Below, piece by piece: positions 7,139 through 61,680 of a DNA stretch of 64,000 nt. Below the pieces are notes generated by a model that did no database searches, was not told the DNA's origin, and saw only the letters and a program-made list of their open reading frames with translations. The position numbers and the translations under genes are program-made. Position 1 is the stretch's first letter, and each line of letters opens with the position of its first letter. The stretch is from Gelidibacter salicanalis (GTDB taxonomy: Bacteria; Bacteroidota; Bacteroidia; Flavobacteriales; Flavobacteriaceae), in assembly GCF_016469035.1 (NCBI RefSeq), contig NZ_JAEHJZ010000047.1:1-64000 (forward strand). The letters are read 5' to 3'.

Positions 7139-9148
7139 ATGATCATGAGGAACTGTTTAAATTTCATTTGTATTCTATTTTTCGGCCTGGCGTGCTGCCC
7201 TCCTGTTCTTTTTGCCCAAGAGCGGGATACTTTGGTGCCTATTGAATTAAAGGAAGTACTCTTAAGTCACGACAAAAATCGGCACGAAGCACACCATTCG
7301 CCAGCTCCGGTACAATCGGTCTCAGGAGAAAAACTCAAAAAACTCAACAGTTTATCAGTTGCCGATGCCCTAAGATATTTTAGTGGCATTCAACTCAAGG
7401 ATTATGGCGGTATTGGCGGCATAAAAACGGTTAATGTCCGAAGTATGGGCTCGCAACATACCGGCGTTTTTTATGATGGCATTCAGTTAGGAAATACCCA
7501 AAACGGCCAAGTGGATCTGGGCAAATTCTCTCTAGAAAATATGGAACAAGTTAGCCTCTATCAAGGCCAACGCACAGATATGGATCAATCTGCAAAATCA
7601 TATGCTTCAGCCAATACTATTTATCTCAAAACCAAAACACCTAAATTCACCAAAGGTCAAAAGTATCAGTTAGCAGCCGGGTTCCGCACAGGATCTTTCG
7701 GACTGGTCAATCCTTCATTGAGCCTCAACTATAAACTTAGCGAATCGGTTTCTACCCGTTTGAGCACAGAGCTGGTGAACGCACATGGCAAGTATAAATT
7801 TCAATATTCCAATGGCGTTTATGACACCATTGCCCACAGAAACAATGCTGACATCACCTCCTATCGTCTGGAAGCTTCGCTACATGGCCAACATCAAAAA
7901 GACACTTGGAATCTGAAGTATTACCATTATGATTCTGAAAGAGGACTGCCAGGGGCGATAGTGGCCAATCGGTTTAAGCGTCCGCAACGCTTGTGGGACA
8001 GAACAAATTTTTTGCAGGCCGATTATAAACATCAATTTGGACGCAATTATGCGCTTACCATTCGGGGTAAATACGCTGACAATTATTCCAGGTATTTAGA
8101 TCCTGAAATTGTAACGACAACCGGATTTCTTGACAATACCTACGAACAGCAGGAATATTACCTCTCTTTGGTTAATACCTACAACATCAAGCCGTTCTGG
8201 ACCTTGAGTGTTGCGACGGATTTTCAGCACAATGTGATGCAGGCCAATTTGTACCGCTTTGCCTATCCAAAAAGAAGTTCTCTACTAAATGCCTTAGCGA
8301 CGAATTTGAATTTTGAAAAATTTAATCTTCAGGCGAGCCTATTAAGTACCAGCGTCTTTGAATCTGTAAAATATTACGAGGCAGCCGATGATTTCCAGGA
8401 GTATTCGCCGTCTCTCCTTATTAATTTTCAACCGTTTGTTTCCCCTGGCTTCAGGGTGCGCGCATTTTATAAGACCATTTTTAGGATGCCCACCTTCAAC
8501 GATCTGTATTACACTTTTGTGGGCAATACGTTTTTGGATCCCGAATATTCTGAACAGATTAATTTAGGATTTTCCTGGCAGAAAAACCTTGGAACTACGG
8601 TTTTCAACATCAGCAGCGACCTCTATAAAATTTGGATTACCGATAAAATAGTGGCAGTTCCGGGTACGAATCTGTTTAGATGGACCATGTTCAATCTGGG
8701 GGAAGTAGAAACAAAGGGGATAGAAACGAAACTTACCAACTCCGGAAAGCTCGAGTCTAACATTAATTACACCGCTGTCCTCAACTATACGTTCCAGGAA
8801 TCTGTAGATGTCACCCCCGGAGGCAGTAGCTATGGACAGCAAATCCCTTATACACCCAAGCATAGTGGCGGTTTAAGCGTGATGGTCGATTATAAAGAAT
8901 TCGGTTTCAACTATAGTTTTATTTATACAGGAGAACGCTATAGCCAAAAAGCCAACATTGCCTCCAACTATCTACAACCGTGGTACACGCATGATCTGTC
9001 AATTCATTACGCCATCCCAATGCTATTGAAAAACCCATTAAAAATTGGACTGGAAGTAAACAATCTACTAGACCAGCAATATGCCGTGATAAAAAATTTC
9101 CCAATGCCCGGAAGGTCCTTTCGGTTAAGTCTTAATTATGAATTTTAA
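7139..9148 (+). CDS. btuB: TonB-dependent outer-membrane receptor, probable cobalamin transporter (BtuB-like)
   Basis: An outer-membrane receptor that imports its ligand using TonB energy. B12 is the likely ligand because a cobalamin riboswitch sits directly upstream. A signal peptide ends at VLFAQ. A TonB-box-like DTLVPIELKEVLL follows, then a plug domain at about 50-190 (LSVADALRYFSGIQLKDYG, NVRSMGSQHTGVFYDGIQL) and a barrel ending in the aromatic SFRLSLNYEF. It has about 670 residues and no CarboxypepD-like N-terminal extension, so it is a BtuB-type rather than SusC-type receptor. Starts at GTG 7130, ATG 7139 or ATG 7145 are all possible; 7145 gives the most compact signal peptide. It heads an operon with three lipoproteins. 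No BtuFCD transporter is seen in this window. Confidence 0.88.
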   Translation: MIMRNCLNFICILFFGLACCPPVLFAQERDTLVPIELKEVLLSHDKNRHEAHHSPAPVQSVSGEKLKKLNSLSVADALRYFSGIQLKDYGGIGGIKTVNVRSMGSQHTGVFYDGIQLGNTQNGQVDLGKFSLENMEQVSLYQGQRTDMDQSAKSYASANTIYLKTKTPKFTKGQKYQLAAGFRTGSFGLVNPSLSLNYKLSESVSTRLSTELVNAHGKYKFQYSNGVYDTIAHRNNADITSYRLEASLHGQHQKDTWNLKYYHYDSERGLPGAIVANRFKRPQRLWDRTNFLQADYKHQFGRNYALTIRGKYADNYSRYLDPEIVTTTGFLDNTYEQQEYYLSLVNTYNIKPFWTLSVATDFQHNVMQANLYRFAYPKRSSLLNALATNLNFEKFNLQASLLSTSVFESVKYYEAADDFQEYSPSLLINFQPFVSPGFRVRAFYKTIFRMPTFNDLYYTFVGNTFLDPEYSEQINLGFSWQKNLGTTVFNISSDLYKIWITDKIVAVPGTNLFRWTMFNLGEVETKGIETKLTNSGKLESNINYTAVLNYTFQESVDVTPGGSSYGQQIPYTPKHSGGLSVMVDYKEFGFNYSFIYTGERYSQKANIASNYLQPWYTHDLSIHYAIPMLLKNPLKIGLEVNNLLDQQYAVIKNFPMPGRSFRLSLNYEF

Positions 9149-9157
9149 TCTAAAAAA

Positions 9158-10297
9158 ATGATGAAAAAACTGTGTTTATTAGTGATGATTTTCTTCACTG
9201 CGTATGCTTGCCAAACCGATGATCCGGTGGCAGATGATGGTATTCAAAATCCTGGAGAAGGTGGCATTGATCAACCCTCCGGTGCTGTTGATGGCTTCTA
9301 TTTATTGAACGAAGGCAACATGTCCATGAATAAAGCATCGCTTGATTATATGGATTATGAGACAGGAACCTACAAGAGAAATGTATTTAGCCAAGCCAAT
9401 CCAAACTTGGTAGGAGGACTAGGAGATGTCGGAAATGCAATGGGCATCTATGGCTCAAAATTATATGTCGTGGTGAATGCCTCCAACAAAATAGAAGTGC
9501 TTAATGCCAATACCGGCGTCCGCATCAAACAAATAGACTTAGCAAATGGTAGGTACGTCACCTTTTATAATGGAAAAGTGTATGTGAGTAGTTATTTAGG
9601 CACCATTGGAGATCCCAACGCGCCTAAAGGCATTGTGGCGGAAATTGACACCACGAGTTTGAACATAACGCGGCGGGTAGAAGTAGGGAGACAGCCTGAA
9701 GAACTAGTGGCTTACAATGACAAAATTTACGTGGCCAACTCTGGAGGTTACAGTCCGCCAGATTATGAATCTACCATTTCCGTGATTGACATTCCTAGCT
9801 TTACTGAAAGCAAACGTATAGAGGTGGCGGTAAACCTTCACCGCTTAAAAATAGATAGCGACGGGGATTTATATGTGACTTCTAGGGGCGATTATTATGA
9901 GATTCCGTCAAAGCTATTTGTGATCGACACCAAAACTGAAAAAGTCAAACAAAGTTTCGATGTCGGGGTGACCGATCTTACGATACATAATGATATTGCA
10001 TATATGTACAGTACAGAGTTCAGTTATATTTCAGGCGATTATGATATTTCTTACCGAATGCTGGATACTCAAACAGAAACCTTTTTGGAAACCACGTTTA
10101 TTTCTGACGCACACAAAGCGCTTATTGAAATGCCTTATGGTATAGCGGTTCATCCTGAAACAGGAGATGTGTTGATTACCGACGCCAAAGATTACGTGAC
10201 GCCAGGAACACTTTATTGCTTTACTCCTGAAGGAGTATTGAAATGGTCGGTTGAAACAGGCGATATTCCCGCACATATGGCTTTTAAATTCAAATAA
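9158..10297 (+). CDS. surface lipoprotein, YncE/DUF5074-type beta-propeller (BtuG-like)
   Basis: The 379-residue protein has a lipoprotein signal peptide with cysteine 18 (AYAC), followed by QTDD. This acidic tail resembles the Bacteroidota lipoprotein export signal for surface display. The rest is repeated propeller-blade sequence (GIYGSKLYVVVNASNKIEVLNANTG, blades near 90-330) of the YncE/DUF5074 kind. Bacteroides BtuG, a surface propeller lipoprotein that binds B12 next to BtuB, is the closest known model. Position right behind the riboswitch-controlled receptor (9-base gap) supports a role in B12 capture. The BtuG analogy is inferred from architecture and context, not from alignment. Confidence 0.72.
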   Translation: MMKKLCLLVMIFFTAYACQTDDPVADDGIQNPGEGGIDQPSGAVDGFYLLNEGNMSMNKASLDYMDYETGTYKRNVFSQANPNLVGGLGDVGNAMGIYGSKLYVVVNASNKIEVLNANTGVRIKQIDLANGRYVTFYNGKVYVSSYLGTIGDPNAPKGIVAEIDTTSLNITRRVEVGRQPEELVAYNDKIYVANSGGYSPPDYESTISVIDIPSFTESKRIEVAVNLHRLKIDSDGDLYVTSRGDYYEIPSKLFVIDTKTEKVKQSFDVGVTDLTIHNDIAYMYSTEFSYISGDYDISYRMLDTQTETFLETTFISDAHKALIEMPYGIAVHPETGDVLITDAKDYVTPGTLYCFTPEGVLKWSVETGDIPAHMAFKFK

Positions 10298-55233: not shown

Positions 55234-56679
55234 ATGAAAAAATTAGCACTACACTGGAAAATCATCATCGGAATGGTCCTGGGTATTATATGGGCATTAG
55301 TATCCAGTACAATGGGCTGGAGCGCTTTTACCATTAATTGGATTGATCCGTTTGGCACTATTTTTATCAATTTATTAAAATTGATTGCCGTTCCATTGGT
55401 GTTATTTTCCATTATAAGTGGGGTTGCTAATATTGGCGATCCTAAAAGTTTAGGACGCATGGGCGGGAAGACCTTAGGGATGTATTTGGTAACCACAATT
55501 CTTGCAATTTCGTTAGGGTTACTGTTGGTAAATACCATAAAACCAGGTAAACTGATTGACAAACAGAGCCGCATAGACAACCGGATCAATTACGAAATTT
55601 GGGCCGATTCTCAAGGCTATCAGATTAAAGACGGAATTAACTATTTAAAAGATCCTGAATATTTTAAGCGCGCCCAAGAAATTTCTGATTTGACCAAGAA
55701 AGACTTGAGAGCAGTTTCAGTATCAGATAAGATTGAAACCGCTGGTAAGCAAAAAGAAACGACACCTTTACAGCCATTGGTTGACATTGTGCCAGACAAC
55801 TTCTTTTATTCGCTATCCAATAACGGATTGATGTTACAGGTCATCTTTTTTGCTATTTTCTTCGGTGTTTCACTGTTGTTTATTCCCGACGAAAAATCGG
55901 CCCCCGTACTAAATTTGGTGGACGGTATTAATGAAGTGTTTCTCAAAATGGTAGACTTAGTGATGCAAGCCGCCCCGTTTTTTGTATTTGCCTTATTAGC
56001 CGGGGTGGTCAGTAAAATGGCAGGTGATGACATTGGAAAAGTAATTGAGATATTTAAAGGCTTGAGCTGGTATTCTTTAACCGTGTTATCCGGACTGCTC
56101 ATAATGATATTTATTACCTATCCTTTAATATTGAAAGGCTTCGTAAAGAGAATTCCTTACTCTGGTTTCTTTAAAGCAATGAGTCCCGCACAAACCTTGG
56201 CATTCTCTACATCAAGTAGTGCTGCAACCCTTCCCGTAACCATGGAGTGCGTAGAACAGAACCTAGGTGTCAACAAAAAAATAAGCAGCTTTGTGCTCCC
56301 TATTGGTGCTACTGTCAATATGGATGGCACGAGTCTGTACCAAGCGGTGGCGGTGATTTTTCTAGCGCAGTTGCACATGATTGATTTAACCATAGGTCAG
56401 CAAATCACCGTTGTAATGACTACTACTTTGGCCTCAATTGGTTCAGCGGCGGTACCAAGTGCAGGTCTGGTAATGTTGATAATTGTATTGGACTCTGTAG
56501 GCCTTAACCCAGCCTGGATTGCTATTATTTTCCCTGTGGATCGTATTTTAGATATGTTTAGAACCGTGGTTAACGTAACGGGAGATGCTACTGTGTGCTC
56601 TATCATTGCCGACGGCGAAAATATGTTGGATTATAAAGACAAGAAAAGCCCAACGGAAACTTTTGATCTCGATTCTTAA
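55234..56679 (+). CDS. dicarboxylate/amino acid:cation symporter (DAACS, GltP-like)
   Basis: An inner-membrane importer for glutamate, aspartate or C4-dicarboxylates driven by sodium or protons. The 481-residue protein has the family core: FSTSSSAATLPVTMEC near 327 (serine-rich re-entrant loop), LPIGATVNMDGTSLYQ near 355-370 (NMDGT cation site) and VNVTGDATVCSII near 448. The stretch of about 70 polar residues near 110-180 (between TM3 and TM4) is long compared with GltP. DAACS ion coupling cannot be read. Start ATG at 55234, 18 bases after the REP-like hairpin. Confidence 0.92.
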   Translation: MKKLALHWKIIIGMVLGIIWALVSSTMGWSAFTINWIDPFGTIFINLLKLIAVPLVLFSIISGVANIGDPKSLGRMGGKTLGMYLVTTILAISLGLLLVNTIKPGKLIDKQSRIDNRINYEIWADSQGYQIKDGINYLKDPEYFKRAQEISDLTKKDLRAVSVSDKIETAGKQKETTPLQPLVDIVPDNFFYSLSNNGLMLQVIFFAIFFGVSLLFIPDEKSAPVLNLVDGINEVFLKMVDLVMQAAPFFVFALLAGVVSKMAGDDIGKVIEIFKGLSWYSLTVLSGLLIMIFITYPLILKGFVKRIPYSGFFKAMSPAQTLAFSTSSSAATLPVTMECVEQNLGVNKKISSFVLPIGATVNMDGTSLYQAVAVIFLAQLHMIDLTIGQQITVVMTTTLASIGSAAVPSAGLVMLIIVLDSVGLNPAWIAIIFPVDRILDMFRTVVNVTGDATVCSIIADGENMLDYKDKKSPTETFDLDS

Positions 56680-57812: not shown

Positions 57813-58643
57813 ATGCAAAAATTATCAATTGAAGACATCATCTTAAAAATAGAAGCTGAAGAATTGTTCCATGCAGTGTCTTCTGATTACGCCTTCACCA
57901 TAAAAATTGACGATTACGTTCCGTATGTCTGTGCAGCAGTGCATAATGGCCATCAATTTAGAAAAGAATTATGGGCAAAATGCCTACATACGGCATACGA
58001 CCGTTGGTATGAAGAGGATCCAGAGACTGAAAATATGGTAAAACATCATCCCATAGTCATTTCAGGCTTAGACTCCAGATTTGAATATGATTTGAATCGC
58101 GACCCAGACAATGCCATTTATGACGATGCTTGGGGCAAAAAGCTTTGGAAGGAACCATTAAGCGAAGATGAGAAATCGAGAAGTCTTGAAAAACACCAGA
58201 ATTTCTATAAAATTGTTCATGCGCTCATTACAGCGTTAGAGCAAAAATTTGGATGCTGTATTGTTTACGATATGCATAGTTATAATTGGAAACGTTGGGA
58301 TAGGGAAGTGCCCACATGGAATTTAGGGACCTCCAATATCGATAATGAACGTTATAAAAATTCAATCGAAGATTGGCGAAAAGACCTTTCTGAAATTAAA
58401 TTACCTAAAGGCATCCCAACAACAGCCAAAGTCAATGATACCTTTCAGGGCAATGGTTATTTTTTAAAATTCATCACCACCAATTTTCCTCACACTTTGG
58501 TTTTAGCCACGGAAGTGGCCAAGATTTATTGTGATGAAGAAAGTCAGGTCATCTATCCAGAAGTAGTTTCCGCCATCAGAAAAGGACTTAGAACGCGATT
58601 GCCCGAACACGCCTCAAATTTTTATAATATTTACTCCAATTAA
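57813..58643 (+). CDS. N-formylglutamate amidohydrolase-like protein
   Basis: First gene of a three-gene operon. The 276-residue protein resembles the zinc N-formylglutamate deformylase/HutG-like (FGase) family: CAAVHNGHQFRKEL near 37-50, HHPIVISGLDSRFEYDLNRDP near 79-99, CIVYDMHSYNWKRWDRE near 150, and ATEVAKIYCDEES near 232. The HNG, DxH-type histidine (YDMHSYNW) and glutamate can supply a metal site. No histidine-degradation genes are near, so formylglutamate is not a safe substrate. Coupled without a gap to the next gene (stop 58641-58643, ATG 58644). It may hydrolyse an amide in a metabolite made or used by the partners. Confidence 0.78.
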   Translation: MQKLSIEDIILKIEAEELFHAVSSDYAFTIKIDDYVPYVCAAVHNGHQFRKELWAKCLHTAYDRWYEEDPETENMVKHHPIVISGLDSRFEYDLNRDPDNAIYDDAWGKKLWKEPLSEDEKSRSLEKHQNFYKIVHALITALEQKFGCCIVYDMHSYNWKRWDREVPTWNLGTSNIDNERYKNSIEDWRKDLSEIKLPKGIPTTAKVNDTFQGNGYFLKFITTNFPHTLVLATEVAKIYCDEESQVIYPEVVSAIRKGLRTRLPEHASNFYNIYSN

Positions 58644-60482
58644 ATGATTGAAGATTACCATATAGATGCTGAATTAGTTGAAACTATTTGCAAAAACATT
58701 ACAGAAAATGTTCCTGTAAATGTGGAGCTGCCCAATAAGGGTGTCTTGCATATTGACAAACTTCTACCATTTATTTGTGTTTATAGATATAAAGAACGCG
58801 ATGTGTATTTTGCAAGACTTTTAAAAACACAGGCGTCTTACGTTATTGTAGACGAAACTATTGACATTTCACATCTTCTCGAAGCCATCAGATTAATGAC
58901 TTCTGAAAAATTTGACACCTTCTTGATTTTAGAATTGTGGCCAAATGCTGATACTTTAAAAAATCAGTTTCAAATTTACGGTCCTAAAAATAAATCATTA
59001 GAAACGTTGAATGCCTTGAGCGAGGGGTTTAGCGAAATAAAAAAAACCTTGGGAAATGTTGGGTCTCAGATCATTCAAACTGAATTTAGACATCCAAAGC
59101 ACTTGTTACCTCTAGTGGACATCGACAAGTCTAAAAAACAGGGTACGCTTGTTATAGGCGTTTCGATACCTGTAGTATATAAAAACACCGCAACCGATCA
59201 ATTGTTTTCTTTATTTTTCAGAAAGTTTTATACCATTTTTTCTGAAACAATCAAACGGGCGGTTTATGAATTTATAAGAGTGCAGACTACAGATGCATTT
59301 GAAAATTATTTGATGCTCGGTAAAACCCATATTGACGCGGTAACCTTGTCCTCAGACACCAAATTGGCAGAGATTAGCGAAGGTATGTCGTTTCTGCTAA
59401 GAGTAACACCTGTAAATAGTAATGAAGAATGGGACAAATTTGAGCAAAACAATTTTGAAACCGTTCCTTCATTTAAATACCGACTGCTTGCCATTGATCC
59501 AGAGCTTGAAAAACGTAAACTCTTTAACATCCCATTAGATCTCATAGAAGATCCAACCATCGCCTTTATTTTAAGGGGGAAGCGTCTTGAAATAGAGAAG
59601 CAATTGATGATGTTGGAAGAACGTGGTACAGATAATTTTCGATTTATAGGAGAAAGTCTTTATGGCGTGATTAGAGATGATATTTTAGAGGTCGCAAAAA
59701 ACATCTTGCAAGTGTATCCCAAAGCAGAAACCATCACCAGTTCAGAACGTTATAACGGTGTTGAATTTGCAAAACACGCCCAAAGGGAACTAGATCATTA
59801 CGCTCTGCAATTTCCAGACCTAGATCTCGGCATTGAAATTAGAGACGATGTTGCCGGTATCATGGTCTCAAAATCAAAATTGCTGATTAATGATGAAATG
59901 AATTTGGATGTCAATAGATGTGACGCCCTCATTCAACATGAAATTGGAACCCATATTTTAACCTATTGCAACGGTAAAAGTCAGCCGATAAAGCAAATGT
60001 ACGAAGGGTTTGAAGGTTATGACCAATTGCAGGAAGGTTTGGCCGTAATTGCCGAATATTTGGTGGGTGGCTTAACCATAAATAGGCTCCGATTGTTGGC
60101 CGGAAGGGTTATTGCGGTACAATCTATGGTAGATAATGCCACTTTTATCCAAACTTTTAATCTGCTAAGAACAACCTACGCCTTCCCGGCCCATGTGGCA
60201 TACTACATTAGCATGCGTGTATATAGAGGTGGCGGACTTACCAAAGACGCGGTTTATTTGGCAGGACTTATAGACTTGATGGCGTATTTGAAAAATGGCG
60301 GCAAACTTGAACCGCTTTATACAGGTAAGTTTAATGTGACGCATATTAAATTAATTGAAGAATTACTTTACCGTAAGGTACTAAAACAGCCAATTTTACC
60401 AAGATTTTTAGATCGTGACGATGTTAAGGTCCGATTACAAAAACTACGTGAAGGCATAAACATTGTTGAACTTGTAAATTAA
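58644..60482 (+). CDS. DUF1704/QEGLA metallopeptidase-like protein (MATCAP-like)
   Basis: A 612-residue soluble protein of the DUF1704 family, named for its QEGLA motif (flavohemoglobin expression-modulating QEGLA protein in NCBI style). Near residues 432-437 lies HEIGTH (HExxxH) and 32 residues later the glutamate of LQEGLAVIAEY (464). In the eukaryotic relatives MATCAP1/2 (KIAA0895), which remove the C-terminal tyrosine of tubulin, an HExxxH motif binds zinc. A metallopeptidase or amidase role is therefore inferred. The N-terminal 300 residues are unassigned. It follows the formylglutamate amidohydrolase-like gene with no gap and precedes the ATP-grasp gene by 12 bases. The bacterial substrate is unknown. 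Confidence 0.78.
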   Translation: MIEDYHIDAELVETICKNITENVPVNVELPNKGVLHIDKLLPFICVYRYKERDVYFARLLKTQASYVIVDETIDISHLLEAIRLMTSEKFDTFLILELWPNADTLKNQFQIYGPKNKSLETLNALSEGFSEIKKTLGNVGSQIIQTEFRHPKHLLPLVDIDKSKKQGTLVIGVSIPVVYKNTATDQLFSLFFRKFYTIFSETIKRAVYEFIRVQTTDAFENYLMLGKTHIDAVTLSSDTKLAEISEGMSFLLRVTPVNSNEEWDKFEQNNFETVPSFKYRLLAIDPELEKRKLFNIPLDLIEDPTIAFILRGKRLEIEKQLMMLEERGTDNFRFIGESLYGVIRDDILEVAKNILQVYPKAETITSSERYNGVEFAKHAQRELDHYALQFPDLDLGIEIRDDVAGIMVSKSKLLINDEMNLDVNRCDALIQHEIGTHILTYCNGKSQPIKQMYEGFEGYDQLQEGLAVIAEYLVGGLTINRLRLLAGRVIAVQSMVDNATFIQTFNLLRTTYAFPAHVAYYISMRVYRGGGLTKDAVYLAGLIDLMAYLKNGGKLEPLYTGKFNVTHIKLIEELLYRKVLKQPILPRFLDRDDVKVRLQKLREGINIVELVN

Positions 60483-60494
60483 ATTAAATAACAA

Positions 60495-61535
60495 ATGAAG
60501 ATAGCATTTATAATAAATGACCATGCCACAGAAAAGTGGAATTACACAACACCTGCTTTAGGCTATGCAGCTTATAAAAGAGGCCATGAGGTCTATTTTA
60601 TTGGGGTAGGCGAATTGTCTTATGCCTCTAAAGGACATCTCTCCGTGCGTTGTAAAACGATAAAAGAACGGACTTTTAAAAGCGAAGAAACGTATTTTAA
60701 AGCTGTTCAAAAGGAAGAGTTTACAACCTTATCATCGGAAGAATTAGACGTGCTTTTCTTAAGGAACAATCCTGCTGATGAAATTAATGAACGCGATTGG
60801 GCCTATAATGCGGCCTTTATTTTTGGAGAAATTGCCATGAGAAACGGTGTTATTGTACTGAACCACCCAAGTAGTTTGGCTGGAGCTGTCAATAAAATGT
60901 ACTTTCAGCATTTTCCGGAAATACTTCGTCCAAAGACTATTATTACCAGAGATCACAATGAGATCAAGGAGTTTTTCAAGGAGCAGAAACAAAAGATGAT
61001 TCTAAAACCTTTACAAGGATCTGGAGGCACAAACGTCTTTATGATGGATAAGAAAAATGAACATAATTTATCCCAAACCATTGATGCCATTTGTAGAGAT
61101 GGCTTTGTAATTGCACAAGAATATCTTACGGAAGCTACGGGAGGTGATACCCGTTTATTTTTAATGAATGGTGAGCCATTGCAGGTCAATGGAGCATATG
61201 CGTTGATGCAAAGAGTCAATGCTTCAGGAGACATCAGAAGCAATATTCACGCAGGAGGGAAACCTCAAAAAGTAAAAATGACGGACCAAATTATGGAATT
61301 GGCAGATATTGTGAGACCTAAACTCGTTCAAGACGGTATGTTTTTGGTAGGCATTGATATTGTTGGTTCAAAATTGATGGAGATTAATGTTTTCAGTCCG
61401 GGTGGATTAAACGTCATGGGACAAATGTACGATGCAGATTTTGCAACTCCCGTGATCGAGTCCATTGAACGTAAAGTCTATTATAAGAGCATGTATAATG
61501 ACTACCTTTACAATAGTAGATTGGCAACCTTATAA
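60495..61535 (+). CDS. ATP-grasp ligase, GshB-like
   Basis: A 346-residue ATP-grasp protein. The N-terminal pre-ATP-grasp domain (MKIAFIINDHATEKWNYTTPALGYAAYKRGHEV) precedes the ATP-binding core: ILKPLQGSGGTNVFMM near 168-183 (glycine-rich loop), DGMFLVGIDIVGSKLMEINVFSPGGL near 280-305 (metal-binding glutamate and asparagine). The order resembles glutathione synthetase GshB and RimK-like ligases, which form peptide or amide bonds through acyl phosphates. Because bshA is present (47908), glutathione is unlikely, and a peptide-like product or a tag on a small molecule or protein is inferred. Last gene of the operon; a terminator-like hairpin follows at 61644-61680. Substrates unknown. Confidence 0.8.
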   Translation: MKIAFIINDHATEKWNYTTPALGYAAYKRGHEVYFIGVGELSYASKGHLSVRCKTIKERTFKSEETYFKAVQKEEFTTLSSEELDVLFLRNNPADEINERDWAYNAAFIFGEIAMRNGVIVLNHPSSLAGAVNKMYFQHFPEILRPKTIITRDHNEIKEFFKEQKQKMILKPLQGSGGTNVFMMDKKNEHNLSQTIDAICRDGFVIAQEYLTEATGGDTRLFLMNGEPLQVNGAYALMQRVNASGDIRSNIHAGGKPQKVKMTDQIMELADIVRPKLVQDGMFLVGIDIVGSKLMEINVFSPGGLNVMGQMYDADFATPVIESIERKVYYKSMYNDYLYNSRLATL

Positions 61536-61643: not shown

Positions 61644-61680
61644 AAGCCGTTTCAATTAGTTATGAGACGGCTTCATCTAT
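61644..61680 (+). terminator. hairpin after the ATP-grasp gene
   Basis: AAGCCGTTTCA (61644-61654) pairs with TGAGACGGCTT (61663-61673), with one G-U pair and an eight-base loop. No strong T run follows (CATCTATATT), so termination is uncertain. It is nearly the same as the hairpin at 50220-50250. The gap 61536-61904 holds this hairpin and the repeat below; nothing else is visible. Confidence 0.5.

Follow-up and report, generated by a model that had tools for sequence, protein, structure and literature searches.

An operon linking an ATP-grasp ligase, a MATCAP-family peptidase and an FGase-superfamily amidohydrolase in Gelidibacter salicanalis and other bacteria

In a window of 64,000 nucleotides from the marine bacterium Gelidibacter salicanalis (contig NZ_JAEHJZ010000047.1), we analysed a three-gene operon encoding an FGase-superfamily amidohydrolase, a long MATCAP protein and an ATP-grasp ligase. 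On balance, and with limited confidence, we read the operon as a make-and-break module dedicated to forming and cleaving the peptide bonds of one small, peptide-like metabolite. This reading is supported by a ligase found only together with MATCAP, by the pairing of ligase and MATCAP lineages, by FGase-MATCAP fusions, by a probably degenerate FGase domain and by conserved catalytic residues. The ligase would convert a carboxylate to its acyl phosphate and couple this to an amine, yielding an amide product other than glutathione. The MATCAP domain, an HExxxH+E zinc peptidase, would take the C-terminal residue off this product while the FGase enzyme would hydrolyse a second, N-acyl amide. If the two hydrolases act as one complex, the system would be able to build and recycle its compound; this complex, the shared substrate, its small-molecule nature and the direction of flux are what we infer from the data below. 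The features of the operon are:

57813..58643, + strand: FGase-superfamily amidohydrolase, 276 residues, PF05013 54 bits
57942-57944, + strand: FGase candidate metal/catalytic residue H44, kept in 24/24 aligned rows
58275-58277, + strand: FGase candidate metal/catalytic residue H155, kept in 23/24 rows
58512-58514, + strand: FGase candidate metal/catalytic residue E234, kept in 24/24 rows
58644..60482, + strand: long MATCAP/DUF1704 (QEGLA) protein, 612 residues, PF08014 310.2 bits
58644..59318, + strand: N-terminal domain of the MATCAP protein, residues 1-225, probable degenerate FGase by profile-profile comparison
59436..60452, + strand: MATCAP catalytic domain, PF08014 match
59937..59954, + strand: HEIGTH, the HExxxH zinc motif, residues 432-437; H432, E433 and H437 in 24/24 rows
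60030..60044, + strand: QEGLA motif with the putative third zinc ligand E464; Q463, E464 and G465 in 24/24 rows
60495..61535, + strand: type-B ATP-grasp ligase, annotated family 'glutathione synthetase' PRK12458, 346 residues, NF009110 429 bits
61512..61532, + strand: conserved ligase C-terminal tail NSRLATL; in 14/18 type-B rows the last residues are LAT followed by L, I or M
61644..61673, + strand: terminator-like hairpin 3' of the operon, pattern match only

The three open reading frames are separated by 0 bases (FGase/MATCAP) and 12 bases (MATCAP/ligase), which bears out, down to the exact coordinates, the operon of a preliminary description made from this DNA. Promoter-like matches between positions 56500 and 62800 were at chance level (21 compared with a shuffled mean of 19.8). 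Identical gene order was observed in all 10 Gelidibacter and Lacinutrix loci (L002-L011; nine Gelidibacter, one Lacinutrix), which were retrieved with the MATCAP protein as query, and in all eight rhizobial-type plasmid loci (L042-L046, L049, L050 and L073), the same trio thus also being found on rhizobial plasmids, among them pSymB of the laboratory strain Sinorhizobium meliloti 1021. This conservation of gene order exceeds chance. In one of the latter loci (L043, Sinorhizobium meliloti ml59 pSymB), the ligase frame appears disturbed relative to L042 at about 8658-9950, a stretch with no annotated gene; this may reflect either decay of the cassette in strain ml59 or an error in the sequence.

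Co-occurrence was determined in two genome sets. Among 395 Flavobacteriaceae genomes, MATCAP was found in 197 and the ligase in 185, every one of which also has MATCAP, and none of the 198 genomes without MATCAP carries the ligase (Fisher p 3e-99, shared ancestry ignored). The ligase threshold used here was E <= 1e-90, and 171 of the 185 ligases also score over the curated cut-off. Among 296 Bacteroidota genomes, 16 carry MATCAP and 14 have a ligase over the cut-off, all within those 16 (Fisher p 3.6e-22, shared ancestry again ignored). Within these 16, the G002 ligase scores 396.5 and only G186 is without a ligase; the next-best scores in other Bacteroidota genomes were 214.8 and 193.9.

We counted 52 retrieved MATCAP loci (L002-L011, L027-L050 and L056-L073). 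A long MATCAP is encoded in 31 of them and is adjoined by a type-B ligase in every case (with the disturbed frame in L043), and FGase is present in 26 of the 31, L039, L041, L057, L058 and L060 being without it. A short MATCAP of about 390 residues occurs in 15 loci, 13 of them with a type-A ligase and FGase. The three loci with an intact FGase-MATCAP fusion (L031, L071 and L072) all have a type-A ligase as well, so that a short or intact-fusion MATCAP goes with type-A ligase and FGase in 16 of 18 loci. This second, type-A cassette had been missed by the preliminary description. In L065 and L070 (genomes G466 and G343), which have neither ligase nor FGase, the short MATCAP is adjoined by an SDF dicarboxylate symporter. 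Both ligases flank FGase and a long MATCAP in L008, L032, L033 and L056, and in two genomes a short/type-A set is found at one site and a long/type-B pair at another (L059 and L058 in G305, L061 and L060 in G526). Divergent lone MATCAPs of about 425 residues (L027:5931-7205 and L048:5908-7188) keep HExxxH, have neither ligase nor FGase adjacent and form a separate subfamily.

Trees computed by a quick method, with Shimodaira-Hasegawa-like approximate likelihood ratio test (SH-aLRT) support only, split the ligases into types A and B and grouped the long MATCAPs with top support. Close Gelidibacter loci (L003, L005-L007 and L009-L011) and L043 with its disturbed ligase frame were left out, and the ligase tree was built without L071-L073. 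In the alignment, the window FGase shares 52-70% identity with the FGases of five type-A loci and 25-32% with other long-MATCAP FGases outside Flavobacteriaceae. Because the window FGase is closer to the type-A FGases, the operon of Gelidibacter has the appearance of a hybrid from which the type-A ligase has disappeared.

No Pfam family matched residues 1-225 of the MATCAP protein in the window, and a profile of 15 such N-terminal domains gave no PDB match. Compared with an FGase profile that included the fusions, the 15-domain profile scored 52.7 (probability 92%, E 6.6e-7), against a null of 200 column-shuffled FGase profiles with a mean of 14.3, a standard deviation of 2.5 and a maximum of 22.0. 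Control comparisons scored 14.5 for the reversed FGase profile, 10.8 for the ligase, 14.95 for the reversed ligase and 17.1 for the MATCAP catalytic domain, and leaving the fusions out of the FGase profile gave a probability of 87.7%. Among the matches listed, blastp of N-terminal domains against FGase was weak (best E 4e-5, most above 0.1), as were single-profile comparisons, and several single-sequence matches share one diagonal. Judged by the profile-profile comparison and its shuffles, residues 1-225 are probably a degenerate FGase domain, a feature also absent from the preliminary description. Since the DMHS segment of FGase is aligned with ELW in the window protein, the histidine there appears to be lost.

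Long MATCAPs may thus be read as FGase-MATCAP fusions in which the FGase half has decayed, with a working FGase usually encoded next door. L031, L071 and L072 encode FGase-MATCAP in one open reading frame with intact FGase residues. A further fusion, L047:5317-7308 on a plasmid of Vibrio sp. HDW18, carries Tyr in place of FGase His155 and lacks a neighbouring ligase, possibly FGase decay caught midway. Together, the degenerate domain, the three intact fusions and the one with a single loss suggest that the two hydrolases form one physical complex.

The putative active sites of both hydrolases are conserved. The FGase protein lies above the PF05013 gathering score (54 vs 28.9 bits), a family of N-acyl-amino-acid hydrolases, and far below the HutG cut-off of TIGR02017 (19.3 vs 278.75 bits); going by the family, H44, H155 and E234 would form its metal site. 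The MATCAP protein exceeds the PF08014 gathering score (310.2 vs 27 bits) and misses the TIGR02421 (QEGLA) cut-off (300.9 vs 338.65 bits), which is reached by the rhizobial L044 (360.7) and Photobacterium L071 (459.9) proteins. HEIGTH at 432-437 and E464, suggested earlier as a putative zinc site, lie at the stated positions; H432, E433, H437, Q463, E464 and G465 are invariant in 24/24 relatives, as are R525, K534, D535 and Y538. A profile of these 24 bacterial rows matches human MATCAP (7z5g, E 1.8e-17). For the human enzyme, which trims tubulin tails, HExxxH plus the Glu in EEG has been proposed as metal site and an E281A form is reported as inactive (PMC10499314). In the alignment, E433 of the window protein corresponds to this E281.

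The window ligase matches PF02955 (GSH-S_ATP; 176.7 vs 23 bits) and exceeds the cut-off of NF009110, the NCBI 'glutathione synthetase' family (429 vs 408 bits). It falls under both GshB equivalog cut-offs (NF003573, 218.3 vs 272; TIGR01380, 205.8 vs 299.05), as do the rhizobial L044 and the L036 ligases, whereas two Bacteroidota GshBs from genomes without MATCAP pass both with 407-428 bits. The nearest solved relative in a search with a 25-row profile is GshB (1gsa, E 1.1e-65), RimK being a weaker match. In an alignment of 27 cassette ligases (nine type A, 18 type B; E. coli GshB numbering), K125, K160, G166, G167, D208, R210, R225, D273, E281 and N283 are kept in all rows. E. coli GshB and the two GshBs of Bacteroidota share D9, K87, E124 and T288, all four of which are replaced in type A and type B alike, and T285 has given way to Phe in 16 of the 18 type-B rows; the replaced positions presumably line the substrate pocket. 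The type-B tail shows low column entropy at N340, L343 and A344 (L002 and L038 left out) and deviates in four of 18 rows (L036, L039, L041 and L042). Rare co-occurrence of the genes, loss of HExxxH and loss of ATP-grasp residues had been named beforehand as findings that would speak against a common pathway; instead, all ligase genomes carry MATCAP (185/185 and 14/14), HExxxH is kept in 24/24 rows and the ten ATP-grasp positions in 27/27.

Published expression data offer a possible physiological context. RNA sequencing of Photobacterium damselae lists 'Glutathione synthase GshB' (RS17020) as 38.42-fold and a QEGLA protein (RS17025) as 27.51-fold up at 1% vs 3% NaCl (PMC10308900). The adjacency of the two genes is read from these tag numbers; in two other Photobacterium records (L071 and L072), a type-A ligase overlaps the FGase-MATCAP fusion by 14 bases. 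Also up at 1% NaCl in the same table are RimK, another ATP-grasp ligase (52.24-fold), and agmatinase, gamma-glutamylputrescine oxidase, carboxynorspermidine enzymes and PotD2 (PMC10308900). One guess is that the ligase product is a polyamine conjugate.

The GshB/QEGLA induction and the nine of 16 carrier genomes without a match to the glutamate-cysteine-ligase families tested (PF04262 and PF04107) further support a make-and-break module. Several points weigh against it. Twelve of 197 MATCAP genomes are without the ligase. G053 and G273 have a long MATCAP and a ligase but no FGase, and no FGase match was found in the four MATCAP-only genomes checked of the 12 (G343, G412, G442 and G466); FGase is bound to the set less tightly than the ligase is to MATCAP. 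The co-occurrence statistics take no account of shared ancestry. Type-A ligases exceed the NF003573 cut-off in 3/3 scanned (278-294 vs 272 bits), although these do not reach that of TIGR01380. Finally, the rise at low salt does not fit a high-salt osmolyte.

The preliminary description had suggested a small pathway for a peptide-like compound or a protein tag. It is partly supported: ATP-grasp ligase and metallohydrolases form one functional unit with intact motifs, whereas cyclic ligation and removal at the C-terminus of a protein was not established. In such a cycle the ligase would extend the C-terminus of a protein by an amino acid, which MATCAP would take off again, as in eukaryotic tubulin, and the ligase's own conserved tail could be the substrate or a docking peptide. 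We consider this unlikely. Ligase and peptidase are genetically linked, 14 of the 18 type-B tails close with LAT followed by L, I or M, and the MATCAP active-site motifs are shared with the human tubulin-trimming enzyme (PMC10499314). However, no protein substrate turned up, and no search aimed at one was made; the tail varies in four of 18 rows (L036, L039, L041 and L042), and the closest match of the ligase is GshB, which makes a small peptide, RimK being further away. FGase is left without a place in the cycle and, since its family hydrolyses N-acyl amino acids, a small compound fits at least as well as a protein. The tubulin analogy would hold as logic only. Similarly doubtful is a reversible system with salinity as its cue, in which the ligase would add a residue to a peptide or protein C-terminus, possibly its own N-x-x-L-A-T-L tail, and MATCAP on an FGase/degenerate-FGase scaffold would remove it; if true, prokaryotes would have their own equivalent of the tubulin tyrosination cycle.

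We also give little credence to a linear pathway, in which MATCAP and FGase would trim a precursor and the ligase would add the last residue, with no recycling. The gene-content data fit it equally well, and the polyamine genes that rise in P. damselae at 1% NaCl (PMC10308900) would provide a possible amine source. On the other hand, 12 genomes keep MATCAP without the ligase, and a consistent extra biosynthetic gene was not seen among the neighbours, which also occur in the cassette-free loci L051, L053 and L054.

Least probable is true glutathione synthesis and turnover, with the ligase as a second glutathione synthase and the hydrolases degrading glutathione or its conjugates: the family annotation, the NF003573 scores of the type-A ligases and a GCS2-family gene in seven of 16 carriers would fit, but the window, L044 and L036 ligases fall under both cut-offs that MATCAP-free Bacteroidota GshBs pass, four GshB positions are replaced in both cassette types, and PF04262 is found in 0/16 carriers and PF04107 in 7/16, of which the two resolved (G000 and G130) are PRK13515 carboxylate-amine ligases. 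A PF08886 search gave a signal nowhere at all, and these carrier counts rest on PF04262 and PF04107. Glutathione synthesis is unlikely for the type-B ligase, and the case against it is weaker for type A. The PRK13515 ligase of the Gelidibacter genome itself (L074, G000:C176:70500-73800) lies between ATP-grasp-like and glutamine-amidotransferase-like proteins, possibly another peptide-ligase cluster.

Chorismate synthase, SDF symporter, DCC1-like protein, MutS2 and rhodanese were discarded as members of the make-and-break module and attributed to shared synteny, because the cassette is missing from L053, where chorismate synthase-SDF-DCC1-MutS2 is present, and likewise from L051 and L054, where SDF and rhodanese are. 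The contiguous arrangement in L053 (genome G182) resembles an empty site of the Flavobacteriaceae locus. SDF may still be linked to MATCAP, since the two stay together in L065 and L070, where ligase and FGase are missing. In L040, what seemed to be a fusion of MATCAP and ligase (a 914-residue open reading frame) was rejected, MATCAP lying in another frame. A phage or defence role was likewise discarded, with no PADLOC match and one weak PHROG match (the ligase), and no MATCAP relative was confirmed in viral contigs. The one viral-contig match of the ligase profile (L080:295-1341, IMG/VR) is a type-B-like ligase with 49% identity and the tail NVDMATL, near the end of a contig with phage-like open reading frames, perhaps the bacterial flank of a provirus. 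A MATCAP-like match in Pseudomonas phage Y1 (L081:5001-6026, record marked UNVERIFIED) shows 26.7% identity over 51% of the query.

In conclusion, the cassette is a widespread, little-studied gene set pairing a maker of peptide-like bonds with breakers. The description of MATCAP enzymes as tubulin carboxypeptidases is recent. Among the titles and abstracts listed in searches of open-licence PMC text, none described the cassette and none gave a function for bacterial MATCAP members; the component families are already known. Bacterial MATCAP thereby gains a genetic partner, a ligase confined to MATCAP genomes (185/185 among 395), and, in the fused or degenerate FGase, a likely physical one. With the published salinity cue, these partners make its function testable. 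The data further suggest that many genes named 'glutathione synthase' are misnamed, their product being another compound.

Each component resembles a known system and departs from it. Human MATCAP/TMCP1 (KIAA0895L), the tubulin tyrosine carboxypeptidase, shares with the bacterial protein the catalytic family PF08014 and aligned HExxxH, EGLA and KDxVYLxG stretches, whereas the bacterial protein is paired with a ligase and FGase and probably carries an N-terminal degenerate FGase domain. Bacterial GshB is the nearest structure to the ligase and has the ATP-grasp residues in common with it, but the cassette ligase forms a separate subfamily tied to MATCAP, with replaced, presumably substrate-side positions and, in the window, scores under the equivalog cut-offs. 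HutG, the N-formylglutamate deformylase (PF05013), shares superfamily and His/Glu positions with the window FGase, which stays far below the HutG cut-off. The logic of ATP-grasp addition and peptidase removal recalls the tubulin tyrosine ligase/detyrosinase cycle and RimK on ribosomal protein S6, where the substrate is a protein. Bacterial pairs of amide ligase and hydrolase that act on small molecules are also found in the N-acetylglutaminylglutamine amide system and in glutathionylspermidine synthetase/amidase, which employ other enzyme families.

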